A stretch of DNA of 5,388 nucleotides from Candidatus Auribacterota bacterium (GCA_016932965.1 JAFGBW010000131.1:1-5388); one strand, 5' to 3'; shown: positions 2,169 to 4,531, counted from the stretch's first letter. Numbers and translations are program-made. Notes: generated from the sequence alone by a model not told the origin.

Positions 2169-2789
2169 ATGAATGATCCATTATTCAGCATTCCATTACT
2201 GATTCTGTCCTCCTACCTGATCGGCTCTTTTCCGACAGCTTACCTTTACTGCCGTCTGAGAGGCAAAGACATCCGCAAGGAAGGTTCCGGCAACGTGGGC
2301 GCCACTAATGCCGCCAGATTGTTCGGTAAATCCGCTTTCATCATCGTCTTTGGTATTGATGCCCTGAAAGGCTATGTCAGCGTGCGTTACCTTGTTCCCC
2401 TGTTTGTTCACTCCAATGTTCCTGCTGATTGGCTTTTACTCCTTGTCCTTTTGTTTGCCGTCATCGGCCATGTGTGGACCGTCTTCCTGGGTTTTAAAGG
2501 CGGTAAAGGCGTTGCGGTCTCCGCCGGAGGCCTTGTGGCTTTAATGCCCTTTTCCGTGCTTTTCAGTCTCATCGTGTTCGGCCTTGTTTTTATCTTTTCC
2601 CGCATCGTTTCTTTGGGCTCCGTCTGCGCCGCCCTTGCCCTTCCCCTTATCGCCTGGACCACCAAAGAACCTGGCCTATATACGGCTTTTTCAGTCATCT
2701 TGTCCGCCTTCATCCTGTTTACCCACCGTTCCAACCTTCATCGCCTTTTCGCCGGAACTGAAAAGAAAGTAGGAAGGACGGGTCAATAG
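2169..2789 (+). CDS. plsY: Glycerol-3-phosphate acyltransferase PlsY
   Basis: PlsY is an inner-membrane enzyme that transfers the acyl group of acyl phosphate (made by PlsX) to glycerol-3-phosphate, forming lysophosphatidic acid, the first step of phospholipid synthesis. The 206-residue length is normal. All family signatures are present in order: SYLIGSFPTAYL (15-26), GSGNVGATNAAR (39-50), DALKG (64-68), GHVWTVFLGFKGGKGVA (100-116) and HRSNLHRL with a following Glu (186-198). Several hydrophobic membrane segments separate the loops. ATG 2169 is the only ATG start available, because TAA at 2127-2129 closes the frame upstream. No Shine-Dalgarno site precedes it. TATAAT (2165-2170) overlaps the start codon, so a very short leader or leaderless message is possible if that is a -10 box. 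It is not linked to other lipid genes here. A long hairpin begins 2 nt after the stop. Confidence 0.96.
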   Translation: MNDPLFSIPLLILSSYLIGSFPTAYLYCRLRGKDIRKEGSGNVGATNAARLFGKSAFIIVFGIDALKGYVSVRYLVPLFVHSNVPADWLLLLVLLFAVIGHVWTVFLGFKGGKGVAVSAGGLVALMPFSVLFSLIVFGLVFIFSRIVSLGSVCAALALPLIAWTTKEPGLYTAFSVILSAFILFTHRSNLHRLFAGTEKKVGRTGQ

Positions 2790-2791
2790 AA

Positions 2792-2838
2792 TCTGAAGGG
2801 AACCTGTTCTTTGGCACAAAGAACAGGTTCCCTTCAGA
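2792..2838. repeat. Hairpin A1: perfect 22-bp stem, 3-nt loop
   Basis: The arms 2792-2813 and 2817-2838 are exact reverse complements, starting TCTGAAGGGAACC and ending GGTTCCCTTCAGA, around the loop GCA. The second copy (3783-3829) has identical arms but loop TGC, the reverse complement. The stem is two to three times longer than a typical rho-independent terminator and is not followed by T residues. It could block 3' exonucleases or be an RNase III substrate; the function is inferred. Confidence 0.85.
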
Positions 2839-2861
2839 CTACCCTCCCAAGAAATCAGATG

Positions 2862-2900
2862 GCCCGCTGTGGTTTCTTGAAACAAGAAAACACAGCGGGC
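2862..2900. repeat. Hairpin B1: 18-bp stem, AAA loop
   Basis: The arms GCCCGCTGTGGTTTCTTG (2862-2879) and CAAGAAAACACAGCGGGC (2883-2900) pair with a single G-A mismatch (2872 with 2890) around loop AAA. Copy 2 has T at the equivalent of 2872, which restores the pair. It also has a T-A pair in place of the C-G pair at 2865/2897, a compensated double change. Confidence 0.85.
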
Positions 2901-2905
2901 AGACC

Positions 2906-2949
2906 GATGATCAAATCTCAGTCCGGCTGTAAAAATCATCTTTTTTTTT
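2906..2949 (+). terminator. Probable rho-independent terminator after plsY
   Basis: GATGAT (2906-2911) pairs with ATCATC (2935-2940), immediately followed by nine T (2941-2949). The 23-nt loop contains a small inner stem, CAG...CTG (2919-2929). The long T-run directly after the stem favours termination of plsY transcription. The outer stem is short, so hairpins A and B upstream may assist. Confidence 0.5.
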
Positions 2950-2989
2950 CAAGGAAAGTAGCCAGCCTATTATTGTAAATTTTTTGGAA

Positions 2990-3062
2990 GCGAAGACAAG
3001 GATGTCGAAGCTTGGTGACCAAAGGGAACCCGTTAGGGCAAGGCCAGGAAGGCCGTAGCAAA
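2990..3062. other. 73-nt insertion rich in small hairpins, next to hairpin C1
   Basis: Copy 2 joins AAATTTTTTGGAA directly to AGGGTACGGG (4037-4059), whereas copy 1 has 73 extra nt between the same flanks. The insertion starts at the edge of a small structured motif: AAGC-GAA-GAC-AAGGAT-GTC-GAA-GCTT (2988-3013), two short helices with a symmetric GAA/GAA internal loop. It also has TTGG/CCAA, CCC-GTTA-GGG and GGCC-AGGAA-GGCC. AAGGGAACCCGTT (3022-3034) nearly repeats part of the hairpin A arm. I see no reading frame or target duplication. Confidence 0.5.
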
Positions 3063-3066
3063 AGGG

Positions 3067-3104
3067 TGCGGGAAAAACTTGTTTACAAAAAAGTTTTTCC
3101 CGCA
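3067..3104. repeat. Hairpin C1: GCGGGAAAAACTT stem
   Basis: TGCGGGAAAAACTT (3067-3080) pairs perfectly with AAGTTTTTCCCGCA (3091-3104). The stem continues across one G-A mismatch (3081/3090) to a TACA loop. The second copy at 4054-4091 keeps the structure while replacing the outer G-C pair (3068/3103) by A-T. It lies 51 nt before the zinc-ribbon gene. Confidence 0.8.
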
Positions 3105-3115
3105 TTATTATCCTT

Positions 3116-3130
3116 TATAAAAATTTTATA
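3116..3130. promoter_or_regulatory. AT palindrome ahead of the zinc-ribbon gene
   Basis: TATAAAA-A-TTTTATA is a perfect 15-bp palindrome 25 nt before the ATG at 3156. It includes TATAAA, a possible -10 box. It could be an operator or promoter core, but in such AT-rich DNA chance is a real alternative. Confidence 0.3.
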
Positions 3131-3155
3131 TTTTTAATAGACAGGATTTCATCTC

Positions 3156-3779
3156 ATGGACTGGGAATTAGACAAACGTTCAAAGAAGTGCGCTCTTTGC
3201 CGGAAGGAATTTGAAACCGGCGGGGCGTATCAGTCTGTCCTGAATCTGGAAGAAAACATGTTACAATCCGGTCCTGAGGCGGATTCTTCAAAGGATGAAC
3301 AACCGCCTTCCAAAGACAATCCTCTTAAAAACTCAGGCCGCCGTGAAGAATACTGCCCCTCCTGCTGGGAAATCAAAAAACAGGAGGTCCTTTTTGATTA
3401 TTTCTGGCAGGGGCGTTACATCGAACCCCCTGAACCGGGAAAAAGCCCATCCAGGCTCTATGACATAACCTCCATCCAGGAGCTTTTCTTCAACACTCTG
3501 ACTGAAGCGCAGAACCTCTCATTATCCGATGAAGAACGGATTGAAAAAAACGGAATAGCCTATCTTCTGGCCCTTTTCCTGGAACGGAAACGCCTTCTAA
3601 AACATAAAAAGGATTCGGTGATTGACGGCGTCAATTGCGCGCTTTATGAGGAACCTAAAACCGGAATAGTCCATACCATCCGGCATCCCCTCTTCTCAGC
3701 CCAGTGGGTCAGGGAATATCAGCATAAAATCGCTCTTCTTCTCAACATCCCTCCCAAAGCGGAGAAGGAGAAGGTTTAA
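3156..3779 (+). CDS. Hypothetical protein with CxxC...CxxC zinc-ribbon-like N-terminus
   Basis: This 207-residue soluble protein has no signal peptide or membrane segment. Two cysteine knuckles, CALC (12-15) and CPSC (67-70), could bind one zinc ion. They are separated by about 50 residues, of which 31-64 are polar and low-complexity (Glu/Asp/Ser/Lys/Pro) and probably a flexible insertion. The rest is helical in character: YDITSIQELFFNTL (102-115), then GIAYLLALFLERKRLLKH (133-150), then a short beta-like part YEEPKTGIVHTIRHPL (164-179). The order 'WELDKRSKKCALC ... YCPSCWE ... ALFLERKRLL' recalls a hypothetical family I associate with Planctomycetes and related phyla, whose function is unknown to me. 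This is recall, not a search. The start is supported by AGGA at 3143-3146, 9 nt upstream. The gene stands alone between two copies of the hairpin cassette, with a hairpin beginning 3 nt after its TAA. Confidence 0.8.
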   Translation: MDWELDKRSKKCALCRKEFETGGAYQSVLNLEENMLQSGPEADSSKDEQPPSKDNPLKNSGRREEYCPSCWEIKKQEVLFDYFWQGRYIEPPEPGKSPSRLYDITSIQELFFNTLTEAQNLSLSDEERIEKNGIAYLLALFLERKRLLKHKKDSVIDGVNCALYEEPKTGIVHTIRHPLFSAQWVREYQHKIALLLNIPPKAEKEKV

Positions 3780-3782
3780 GAA

Positions 3783-3829
3783 TCTGAAGGGAACCTGTTC
3801 TTTGTGCCAAAGAACAGGTTCCCTTCAGA
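3783..3829. repeat. Hairpin A2: perfect 22-bp stem, 3-nt loop
   Basis: The arms 3783-3804 and 3808-3829 are identical to those of A1, and the loop (3805-3807) is TGC where A1 has GCA. As the arms are perfect complements, A2 as a whole is the exact reverse complement of A1, although the flanking linker keeps the same orientation. Confidence 0.85.
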
Positions 3830-3852
3830 CTACCCTCCCAAGAAAGCATATG

Positions 3853-3891
3853 GCCTGCTGTGTTTTCTTGAAACAAGAAAACACAGCAGGC
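3853..3891. repeat. Hairpin B2: perfect 18-bp stem, AAA loop
   Basis: GCCTGCTGTGTTTTCTTG (3853-3870) and CAAGAAAACACAGCAGGC (3874-3891) pair without mismatch. Relative to B1, both sides of one pair changed together (C-G to T-A) and the B1 mismatch is absent. Confidence 0.85.
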
Positions 3892-3901
3892 AGATCAATT
3901 G

Positions 3902-3936
3902 ATTAAATTTTGGTTTTTCCAAAAATTGATATTTTT
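3902..3936 (+). terminator. Possible AT-rich terminator after the zinc-ribbon gene
   Basis: ATTAAATTTTGG (3902-3913) pairs with CCAAAAATTGAT (3919-3930) over 12 positions with one wobble and one A-A mismatch, around a TTTTT loop. ATTTTTG follows. It occupies the same place, behind hairpin B, as the T9 terminator of cassette 1, although the sequences differ. Confidence 0.4.
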
Positions 3937-3983
3937 GATTTCAGAATGTTTTAACTAAACCAGAAGGTCATTAAATATTTTTT

Positions 3984-4030
3984 GTATGCCGAAGCCTCTA
4001 TAGACATTGTCTATAGAGGCTTCGGCATAC
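3984..4030. repeat. Hairpin D: perfect 22-bp stem, ATT loop
   Basis: The arms 3984-4005 (starting GTATGCCGAAGCC) and 4009-4030 (ending GGCTTCGGCATAC) are exact complements with loop ATT. It has the same 22+3+22 geometry as hairpin A but unrelated sequence. AAAATTTTTT follows at 4036-4045. It is present only in cassette 2. Confidence 0.85.
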
Positions 4031-4053
4031 CATTTAAAATTTTTTGGAAAGGG

Positions 4054-4091
4054 TACGGGAAAAACTTTTTTATAAAAAAGTTTTTCCCGTG
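4054..4091. terminator. Hairpin C2: ACGGGAAAAACTTTTT stem, possibly a bidirectional terminator
   Basis: ACGGGAAAAACTTTTT (4055-4070) pairs perfectly with AAAAAGTTTTTCCCGT (4075-4090) around TATA, and a further T-G wobble is possible at 4054/4091. GATTTTTCCCC follows on the plus strand. On the minus strand the stem lies 17 nt beyond the stop of the gene ending at 4108, so it may end transcripts from either direction. It is a repeat of C1 with a compensated outer pair. Confidence 0.6.
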
Positions 4092-4107: not shown

Positions 4108-4425
4108 TTACTGGGAACAGGAAATCAGCTTGTCATCAGACAGATCAGATGAGGGGGGACTCTCCTGCAGGGAGGATGTTCCGGAACAAATGGAAGGGCT
4201 GGATGTTTCAGGACAACAGGAGGAAGACCTGTGGCGGGCCGGCAGAAAGCTTTTACACAGGCCCCATTTTTCAGGATGCAGACAGATGCTTTTTCCGGCA
4301 AAAGAATCTCCCCAATACCCCAGCTTCACGTAAAAATAAAAACACAGAACAACAAACAGTATGAAATACAGGCTAACGAGCTTCAATGTGATGGAATCTT
4401 TTTTATAGTGGTTCATTTCCGGCAT
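4108..4425 (-). CDS. Small hypothetical single-pass membrane protein, Cys/Ser-rich tail
   Basis: This is 105 residues, unrecognised. The start ATG (4425-4423) is chosen because AGGAGG lies 10 nt upstream on the minus strand (4441-4436). The frame is open further upstream to 4485, but that start has no such support. Residues 14-32 (LKLVSLYFILFVVLCFYFY) form one hydrophobic membrane segment after a short charged N-terminus, MPEMNHYKKDS. Few positive residues follow the segment, which would suit an N-in topology with an external tail. The tail has five cysteines between residues 48 and 80 plus one at 103. It ends in a Ser/Pro/Asp-rich, probably disordered stretch (66-105). It is divergent from the yihY-family gene and convergent with the zinc-ribbon gene. 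A competing plus-strand frame at 4130-4333 would need a TTG start without a good ribosome-binding site, so I favour the minus strand, though not decisively. Confidence 0.6.
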   Translation of the reverse strand: MPEMNHYKKDSITLKLVSLYFILFVVLCFYFYVKLGYWGDSFAGKSICLHPEKWGLCKSFLPARHRSSSCCPETSSPSICSGTSSLQESPPSSDLSDDKLISCSQ

Positions 4426-4531
4426 GATCCGATTTCCTCCTGGTTTGTTTTCAGTTATCAAACGATATTCAAATAAAAAGCGCAACCTTTTTGCTTGCTA
4501 TTTTATACGGCTCGTATTTTAATTCAATCCT
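4426..4531. promoter_or_regulatory. Divergent promoter region
   Basis: This 106-nt gap separates two divergent starts. On the minus strand, TTGAAT (complement of 4522-4527) and TAAAAT (complement of 4500-4505) are 16 nt apart and fit a sigma-70-type promoter for the small membrane gene. On the plus strand, TTGCTT (4491-4496) and TATTTT (4515-4520), 18 nt apart, could serve the yihY-family gene, which has no visible Shine-Dalgarno site. The dyad ATACG-GCT-CGTAT (4505-4517) lies within both and could be a shared operator. AGGAGG (complement of 4436-4441) is the ribosome-binding site of the minus-strand gene. Confidence 0.4.

Follow-up and report, generated by a model that had tools for sequence, protein, structure and literature searches.

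The intergenic repeats of a contig from a Candidatus Auribacterota bacterium (GCA_016932965.1, JAFGBW010000131.1) are members of one dispersed unit, in which a perfect hairpin is followed by a linker that mirrors the stem of this same hairpin. Comparison of the copies indicates that the constraint that shaped the linker is probably its use as a third strand on this stem. More tentatively, we propose that the units represent a natural alternate-strand triplex, the third strand of which would be kept by compensatory evolution and which would form a many-copy barrier at gene ends in several lineages. The contig, which is referred to here as the window (i.e., the whole stretch of 5,388 nt that was analysed), is one of the 300 contigs of a 3.14-Mb draft genome.

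Repeat units and genes in the window

The upstream genes in the window are a bactofilin gene, of which only the 3' end is present, and then two pilin-like genes. The genes and repeat features that follow are:

2169-2789, plus strand: plsY (glycerol-3-phosphate acyltransferase family); precedes unit 1
2792-2838, plus strand: unit 1, first hairpin (A); perfect 22-bp stem, 3-nt loop GCA, 2 nt past the plsY stop codon
2839-2861, plus strand: unit 1, linker and proposed third strand, CTACCCTCCCAAGAAA; mirrors the A stem
2862-2900, plus strand: unit 1, second hairpin (B); 18-bp stem with 1 mismatch
2980-2987 and 3060-3066: TTTTTTGG and AAAAGGG, respectively; proposed third-strand halves on either side of the insert
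2988-3059: insert of approx. 72 nt inside the linker of the minus-strand C unit, which it divides into two; occurs 6 times genome-wide
3067-3104, minus strand: degenerate unit, first hairpin (C) with imperfect stem; second hairpin not recognisable
3156-3779, plus strand: 207-aa ORF, no family assigned; precedes unit 2
3783-3829, plus strand: unit 2, first hairpin (A); same perfect 22-bp stem, loop TGC, 3 nt past the stop codon of ORF 3156-3779
3830-3852, plus strand: unit 2, linker and proposed third strand
3853-3891, plus strand: unit 2, second hairpin (B); perfect 18-bp stem
3984-4030, minus strand: unit 3, second hairpin; perfect 22-bp stem
4031-4054, minus strand: unit 3, linker and proposed third strand, ACCCTTTCCAAAAAA (minus-strand reading)
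4055-4090, minus strand: unit 3, first hairpin (C); perfect 16-bp stem, 17 nt past the stop codon of ORF 4108-4485
4108-4485, minus strand: short ORF; precedes unit 3
4532 onward: BrkB/YihY-family gene

An earlier note on this DNA had described a cassette of A-linker-B and C, present in two direct copies, and these repeats were recovered here: A-linker-B occurs at 2788-2908 and 3779-3899 in the same orientation (92% identity over 121 nt), and C occurs at 3067-3104 and 4054-4091 (93% identity over 42 nt). The three perfect 22-bp stems that had been reported are present at 2792-2838, 3783-3829 and 3984-4030, and the hairpins, including the 18-bp B stems and the C stems, are indeed strong; as single-stranded DNA, positions 2786-2905 and 3777-4095 fold 13 and 18 standard deviations better than dinucleotide shuffles, respectively. 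The A hairpins begin 2-3 nt past the stop codons of plsY and ORF 3156-3779, in agreement with the claim that each cassette starts within 3 nt of a stop codon. Two parts of the makeup of the cassette had been missed, however, i.e., the linker as a proposed third strand and the nature of C, which, together with the adjoining hairpin (3984-4030), reads as a unit of the same kind on the minus strand. This reading implies that the arrays of approx. 300 nt consist of two units facing each other. As convergent gene pairs can have one unit per gene, back to back, the second array of the window is explained as well. No match to the window at or above the family gathering score was found in Rfam.

The two A hairpins differ only in their loops (2814-2816 and 3805-3807), which are reversed (GCA and TGC) and look as though the palindrome had been flipped; TAC and GTA loops elsewhere in the genome suggest likewise. 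The position that the repeat of approx. 72 nt takes inside the linker is also filled in units on contigs C46 and C132, and this repeat may be either a variant form of the linker or a small repeat nested in it. Another type of intergenic repeat is found at 1932-2153, where a CACGAAGGACACGAA-type sequence occurs twice in inverted orientation, approx. 180 nt apart, with a palindrome, TGTCATTCCCGC...GCGGGAATGACA, between the copies at 1995-2022.

A dispersed family of hairpin units

The unit consists of a perfect hairpin of 16-22 bp, a linker of 20-27 nt and usually a second hairpin; the 5' arm of the first hairpin is purine-rich and then pyrimidine-rich. Families of units differ in linker sequence (e.g., CCCTCTTC as compared to CCCTTTTC). 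Using blastn against the window's own genome, we found A or A-B at 5 further loci, with C approx. 200-250 nt beyond in 4 of them, and 35 matches to C (both strands counted). A covariance model of A-B (R1) was built on six copies, in whose alignment 17 of the 39 predicted pairs had changes in both bases and no pair had a change in just one; a search with R1 found approx. 33 places in the same genome, and a model of the C-type unit (R2) found at least 50 distinct places at E < 1e-8. Merged by hand count, the two lists comprise at least approx. 75 places, all these counts being lower bounds as the census is based on the best 150 candidates scored per model search plus the retrieved stretches. These searches support the dispersed structured family that had been suggested from two copies. 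In the sequence retrieved around the matches, hairpins of such size occur at 51 per 100 kb, as compared to 1 per 100 kb after shuffling (approx. 50-fold).

Position of the units relative to genes

A generic flank pattern identified 49 units in this genome. Of these, 31 begin no more than 60 nt past a stop codon on the same strand (usually at -7 to +31), and for 14 units the upstream gene is on the opposite strand; ORFs were defined with a simple script rather than a gene finder. None of the 47 two-hairpin units in this genome lies inside an ORF, and the same peak past stop codons was observed in two Clostridia genomes, at 4-27 nt. These counts bear out the proposed attachment of the repeats to gene 3' ends. 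The outcomes that the earlier note had named as speaking against its proposal, i.e., an absence of further copies or a random spread relative to stop codons, were looked for and neither was observed.

The same note had suggested that the direct A-B repeats could make the gene at 3156-3779 a cassette that is moved or deleted. While this gene is in fact flanked by two direct A-B copies, 18 of the 43 other genomes in the phylum have a single homologue of it, all 18 without a strong unit match, and the units elsewhere each accompany a different gene. A movable gene cassette is therefore unsupported and hardly credible, and each repeat is better explained as a 3'-end module of the preceding gene. 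ORF 3156-3779 itself, which encodes CxxC and CPSC motifs and has no Pfam match, represents an undescribed conserved family; its synteny with plsY is not retained in the relatives (within approx. 1.5 kb). The homologues of this ORF in the window's phylum argue against a contig that is a contaminant from Clostridia.

Distribution across bacteria

When the 24-nt core of the C unit was compared to 84,980 species genomes, 23 stretches matched; these were from Clostridia/Oscillospiraceae, mostly gut and rumen MAGs, plus one Lentisphaerae MAG, and by reading the matches are usually located just past a stop codon. Four Clostridia genomes showed at least 41-123 R2 matches each (best 150 candidates scored; palindromes may match on both strands), and 12 of the 197 genomes in one order of Clostridia matched (20 candidates scored per genome). 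Within the window's phylum, on the other hand, no strong unit match was found in the 43 other genomes, so that of the 44 only this genome matched. This patchy, phylum-crossing spread suggests horizontal spread with local amplification. The Lentisphaerae genome (bacterium SIG80; L125, 4334-4357) has a single full unit with a second hairpin and one R2 match.

One possible explanation for the spread could be a REP/BIME- or MITE-like element, i.e., a selfish repeat that is mobile, prefers sites past stop codons as its targets and has a structure that serves transposition. The patchiness across phyla, the near-identical core, and the near-identity and reversed loops of the A-B copies in the window would all fit such an element. 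However, the Y1 (HUH) transposase family (PF01797) had no match in the window's own genome, nor in G040, G042 and G043, which are three of the four copy-rich Clostridia genomes, with one match above the cut-off in the fourth (G041; all of these genomes are drafts), and the core had no matches in phage, plasmid and viral collections. Some Y1 transposase matches were found in relatives that lack the unit. Moreover, mobility alone would leave the mirror relation of stem and linker unexplained, and it could coexist with a third-strand role of the linker. Overall, we consider transposition quite unlikely as the explanation for the structure.

The linker as a mirror of its own stem

The mirror relation can be illustrated by a unit in which the 5' arm GGGAAAAC-TTTT is matched by the linker CCCTTTTC-AAAA with a 3-nt turn between; in a longer form, the 5' arm GGGAAAAAC-TTTTT is matched by the linker CCCTTTTC-AAAAA, which is close to a mirror image of the 3' arm. 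Per unit, the median number of such correspondences is 11-13, with loops of mostly 3-5 nt and turns of 3-4 nt, and the linker is frequently 1 nt shorter than the purine run of the stem.

In a permutation test with flanks picked independently of the stem, linkers matched the mirror of their own stem significantly better than that of permuted stems (z = 9.7 for this genome, n = 47; z = 7.3 and 6.7 for two Clostridia genomes; z = 10.8 for four Clostridia genomes pooled, n = 52), where copies are counted as independent and copies within a family share ancestry. Relations between stem and linker other than the mirror reached z values of at most 4.3 in the same test. In a fixed register, a strong match in both halves was observed for 38% of the linkers with their own stem as compared to 2% with the stems of other families, and stratification by position showed that A or G in a stem predicts T or C in its linker (z = 5.7 and 3.4). 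Hairpins that do not show the purine-to-pyrimidine form had a mirror in only 2 of 99 and 2 of 60 cases, which is level with shuffles. Better evidence that the linker tracks the stem comes from the Clostridia sets, in which the purine orders are many and varied.

Different purine orders occur with linkers that match them, i.e., GAGAGAAAC with CTCTTTTC, GGGAGAAAAC with CCCTCTTTC, TTTCT with AAAGA, and a GGGGAGAGGGGGAAAC-TCT stem with a CCCCTCTTCCCTTTC-AGA linker. C at the switch point of the stem is accompanied by C in the linker in 62 of 73 cases, in matching numbers, and these pairs correspond to G.G-C when read on the complementary strand. In one family, a TTTAT stem is accompanied by an AAACA linker, which corresponds to G.T-A when the complement is read; the G.T-A triad is the usual answer to a T-A inversion. 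As the linker is mirror-imaged, Watson-Crick pairing with its own stem is impossible, which points to a third-strand code instead. Inverted partner units in Clostridia (L115, L129, L130 and L121) have stems like GGGGGTGC...TTTTT and CCCCCTTGAAAAAC linkers, and these stem types may extend this code.

Three other relations were considered and rejected. The linker as a direct repeat of the 3' or 5' arm scored far below the mirror. Watson-Crick pairing between the linkers of inverted units, as seen in the fold of the second array, is not a general explanation because solitary units also have the mirror. Pairing of an outer flank, AAAAGGG, with the linker would be possible in some C-type units of this genome, and this flank is absent from the Clostridia copies.

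We also assessed whether the units could be ordinary bidirectional intrinsic terminators, in which the mirror would be a by-product of base composition. Strong hairpins located past stop codons would be expected for such terminators, and some units have T-rich antisense flanks. However, a run of at least 5 T near the start of the sense tail (within its first 8 nt) is seen in only 7 of 105 units, the tail in the window itself (CTACCCTCCC) shows no such run, and this missing T-tract argues against a plain intrinsic terminator. Furthermore, the mirror was not reproduced by composition or shuffle controls and the covariation persisted after stratification by position, which makes this explanation very improbable. 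Canonical terminators were approximately as frequent at unit-bearing gene ends as at other gene ends, with few canonical ones detected overall.

Proposed triplex and possible function

According to the proposed mechanism, the linker, once exposed as a single strand, would turn back after 3 nt and enter the major groove of the hairpin. It would follow the purine tract of the lower half and then change to that of the upper half, which is on the other arm (i.e., an alternate-strand triplex), with a pyrimidine motif in the lower half and a purine motif in the upper half. For the complementary (template) strand, the main correspondences predict antiparallel A.A-T and G.G-C (lower half), G.G-C (switch point), and T.A-T, C.G-C and G.T-A (upper half); all of these are recognised triads. 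The upper half, with its purine motif, is A-rich and thus of weak chemistry, which counts against the triplex reading, as do the linkers that fall 1 nt short of the purine run and the results for TM-ECO in cells (see below).

An alternative is a 3' module that acts at the RNA level, where the transcribed hairpin would end the mRNA or protect it from exonucleases and the pyrimidine half of the linker would lie on the lower stem in a triple helix of RNA, with U.A-U and C.G-C triads. This would be consistent with units that are sense-oriented and located just past the stop codon, and the lower half of the mirror would work in RNA too. On the other hand, the upper half also tracks the stem, with G correctly placed, and RNA does not form purine-motif triplexes (cited in PMC4666352), which favours the DNA level, if not decisively. 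Nor do the stems prefer G.T over A.C mismatches; among 1675 pairs, there were 7 G.T, 13 A.C and 13 other mismatches (i.e., G.T represented 7 of 33), and the finding that wobble pairs are not favoured likewise points to DNA over RNA, again not decisively. We thus regard an RNA-level module as unlikely.

The position and orientation of the units argue for a role at gene ends, and a constraint at the DNA level suggests that the structure either obstructs polymerases or serves as a supercoil sink. It is possible, though we would stop short of calling it probable, that the predicted structure acts on DNA at the gene end in one of these ways, i.e., as a supercoil sink or as a two-way barrier that would limit read-through between neighbouring, above all convergent, genes.

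The formation and function of DNA triplexes in cells is a long-standing question. Dozens of stems that differ in purine order, many of which have a linker to match as third strand, resemble a natural mutation-compensation experiment, in which natural DNA triple helices become testable by evolution through a strong and falsifiable sequence test. The units also offer natural sequence sets for structure work and a place, the 3' ends of genes, to seek function. If the triplex reading is true, they would be direct evidence, drawn from evolution, that living cells form DNA triplexes and that these matter.

Comparison with known elements

Like intrinsic (Rho-independent) terminators, the units have a GC-based hairpin located 5-30 nt past a stop codon, but they lack an immediate T-tract and have a tail that is mirror-coded to the stem as well as a second hairpin. 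With REP/BIME elements and their RAYT they share a many-copy, palindromic and intergenic nature, frequent inverted pairs and a frequent location at gene 3' ends; they differ in the third-strand linker and in the absence of the Y1 transposase from copy-rich genomes other than G041. H-DNA mirror repeats also have two pyrimidine runs that are mirror-symmetric about a short centre, whereas in the units the mirror continues past the purine/pyrimidine switch and is linked to a hairpin, so that one strand is enough. Integron attC sites, which were considered for the flanking arrangement, were set aside, as the stems are perfect and each unit has its own upstream gene. To our knowledge, a strand switch in mid-helix is known only from designed oligonucleotides, and no report of a natural alternate-strand triplex was found in the literature searched, which covered few subscription journals.

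BoxC/PIT/TM-ECO elements are bacterial intrastrand triplex repeats with 9-nt stems and a 3-nt second loop that are intergenic, sometimes occur in inverted pairs and have been linked to genome instability (PMC4666352). The triplex of TM-ECO was shown in vitro, with a very stable fold, footprinting in E. coli showed no stable folding, and earlier work on PIT/TM-ECO saw neither promoter nor terminator activity (PMC4666352). The units have in common with these elements (Holder et al. 2015, PMC4666352) a single-strand hairpin plus (here proposed) third strand with a 3-nt second loop, a dispersed and intergenic location, perfect or near-perfect stems, occasional inverted pairs and a patchy occurrence among relatives. 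They also agree with the general definition of a PIT (loops of 1-6 nt, at least 6-8 triads, hairpin and third-strand segment in one strand), but depart from its single-class stem (all purines on one arm, classes I-IV), as the purines swap arm midway and the proposed third strand switches arms, giving a nested class III plus class II (on the complement, I plus IV). Compared to TM-ECO, the units have approx. 12-13 predicted triads rather than 9, an A/T-rich upper half and a second hairpin, are sense-oriented past stop codons where TM-ECO shows no strand bias, and occur in Clostridia and another phylum; their sequence is unrelated, and the BoxC/TM-ECO consensus (CCCTCNCCC...GGGNGAGGG...GGGNGAGGG) is, by reading, absent from the listed units. 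Overall, the unit would work like a PIT element but breaks the single-class definition, and its composite form at gene 3' ends is new.
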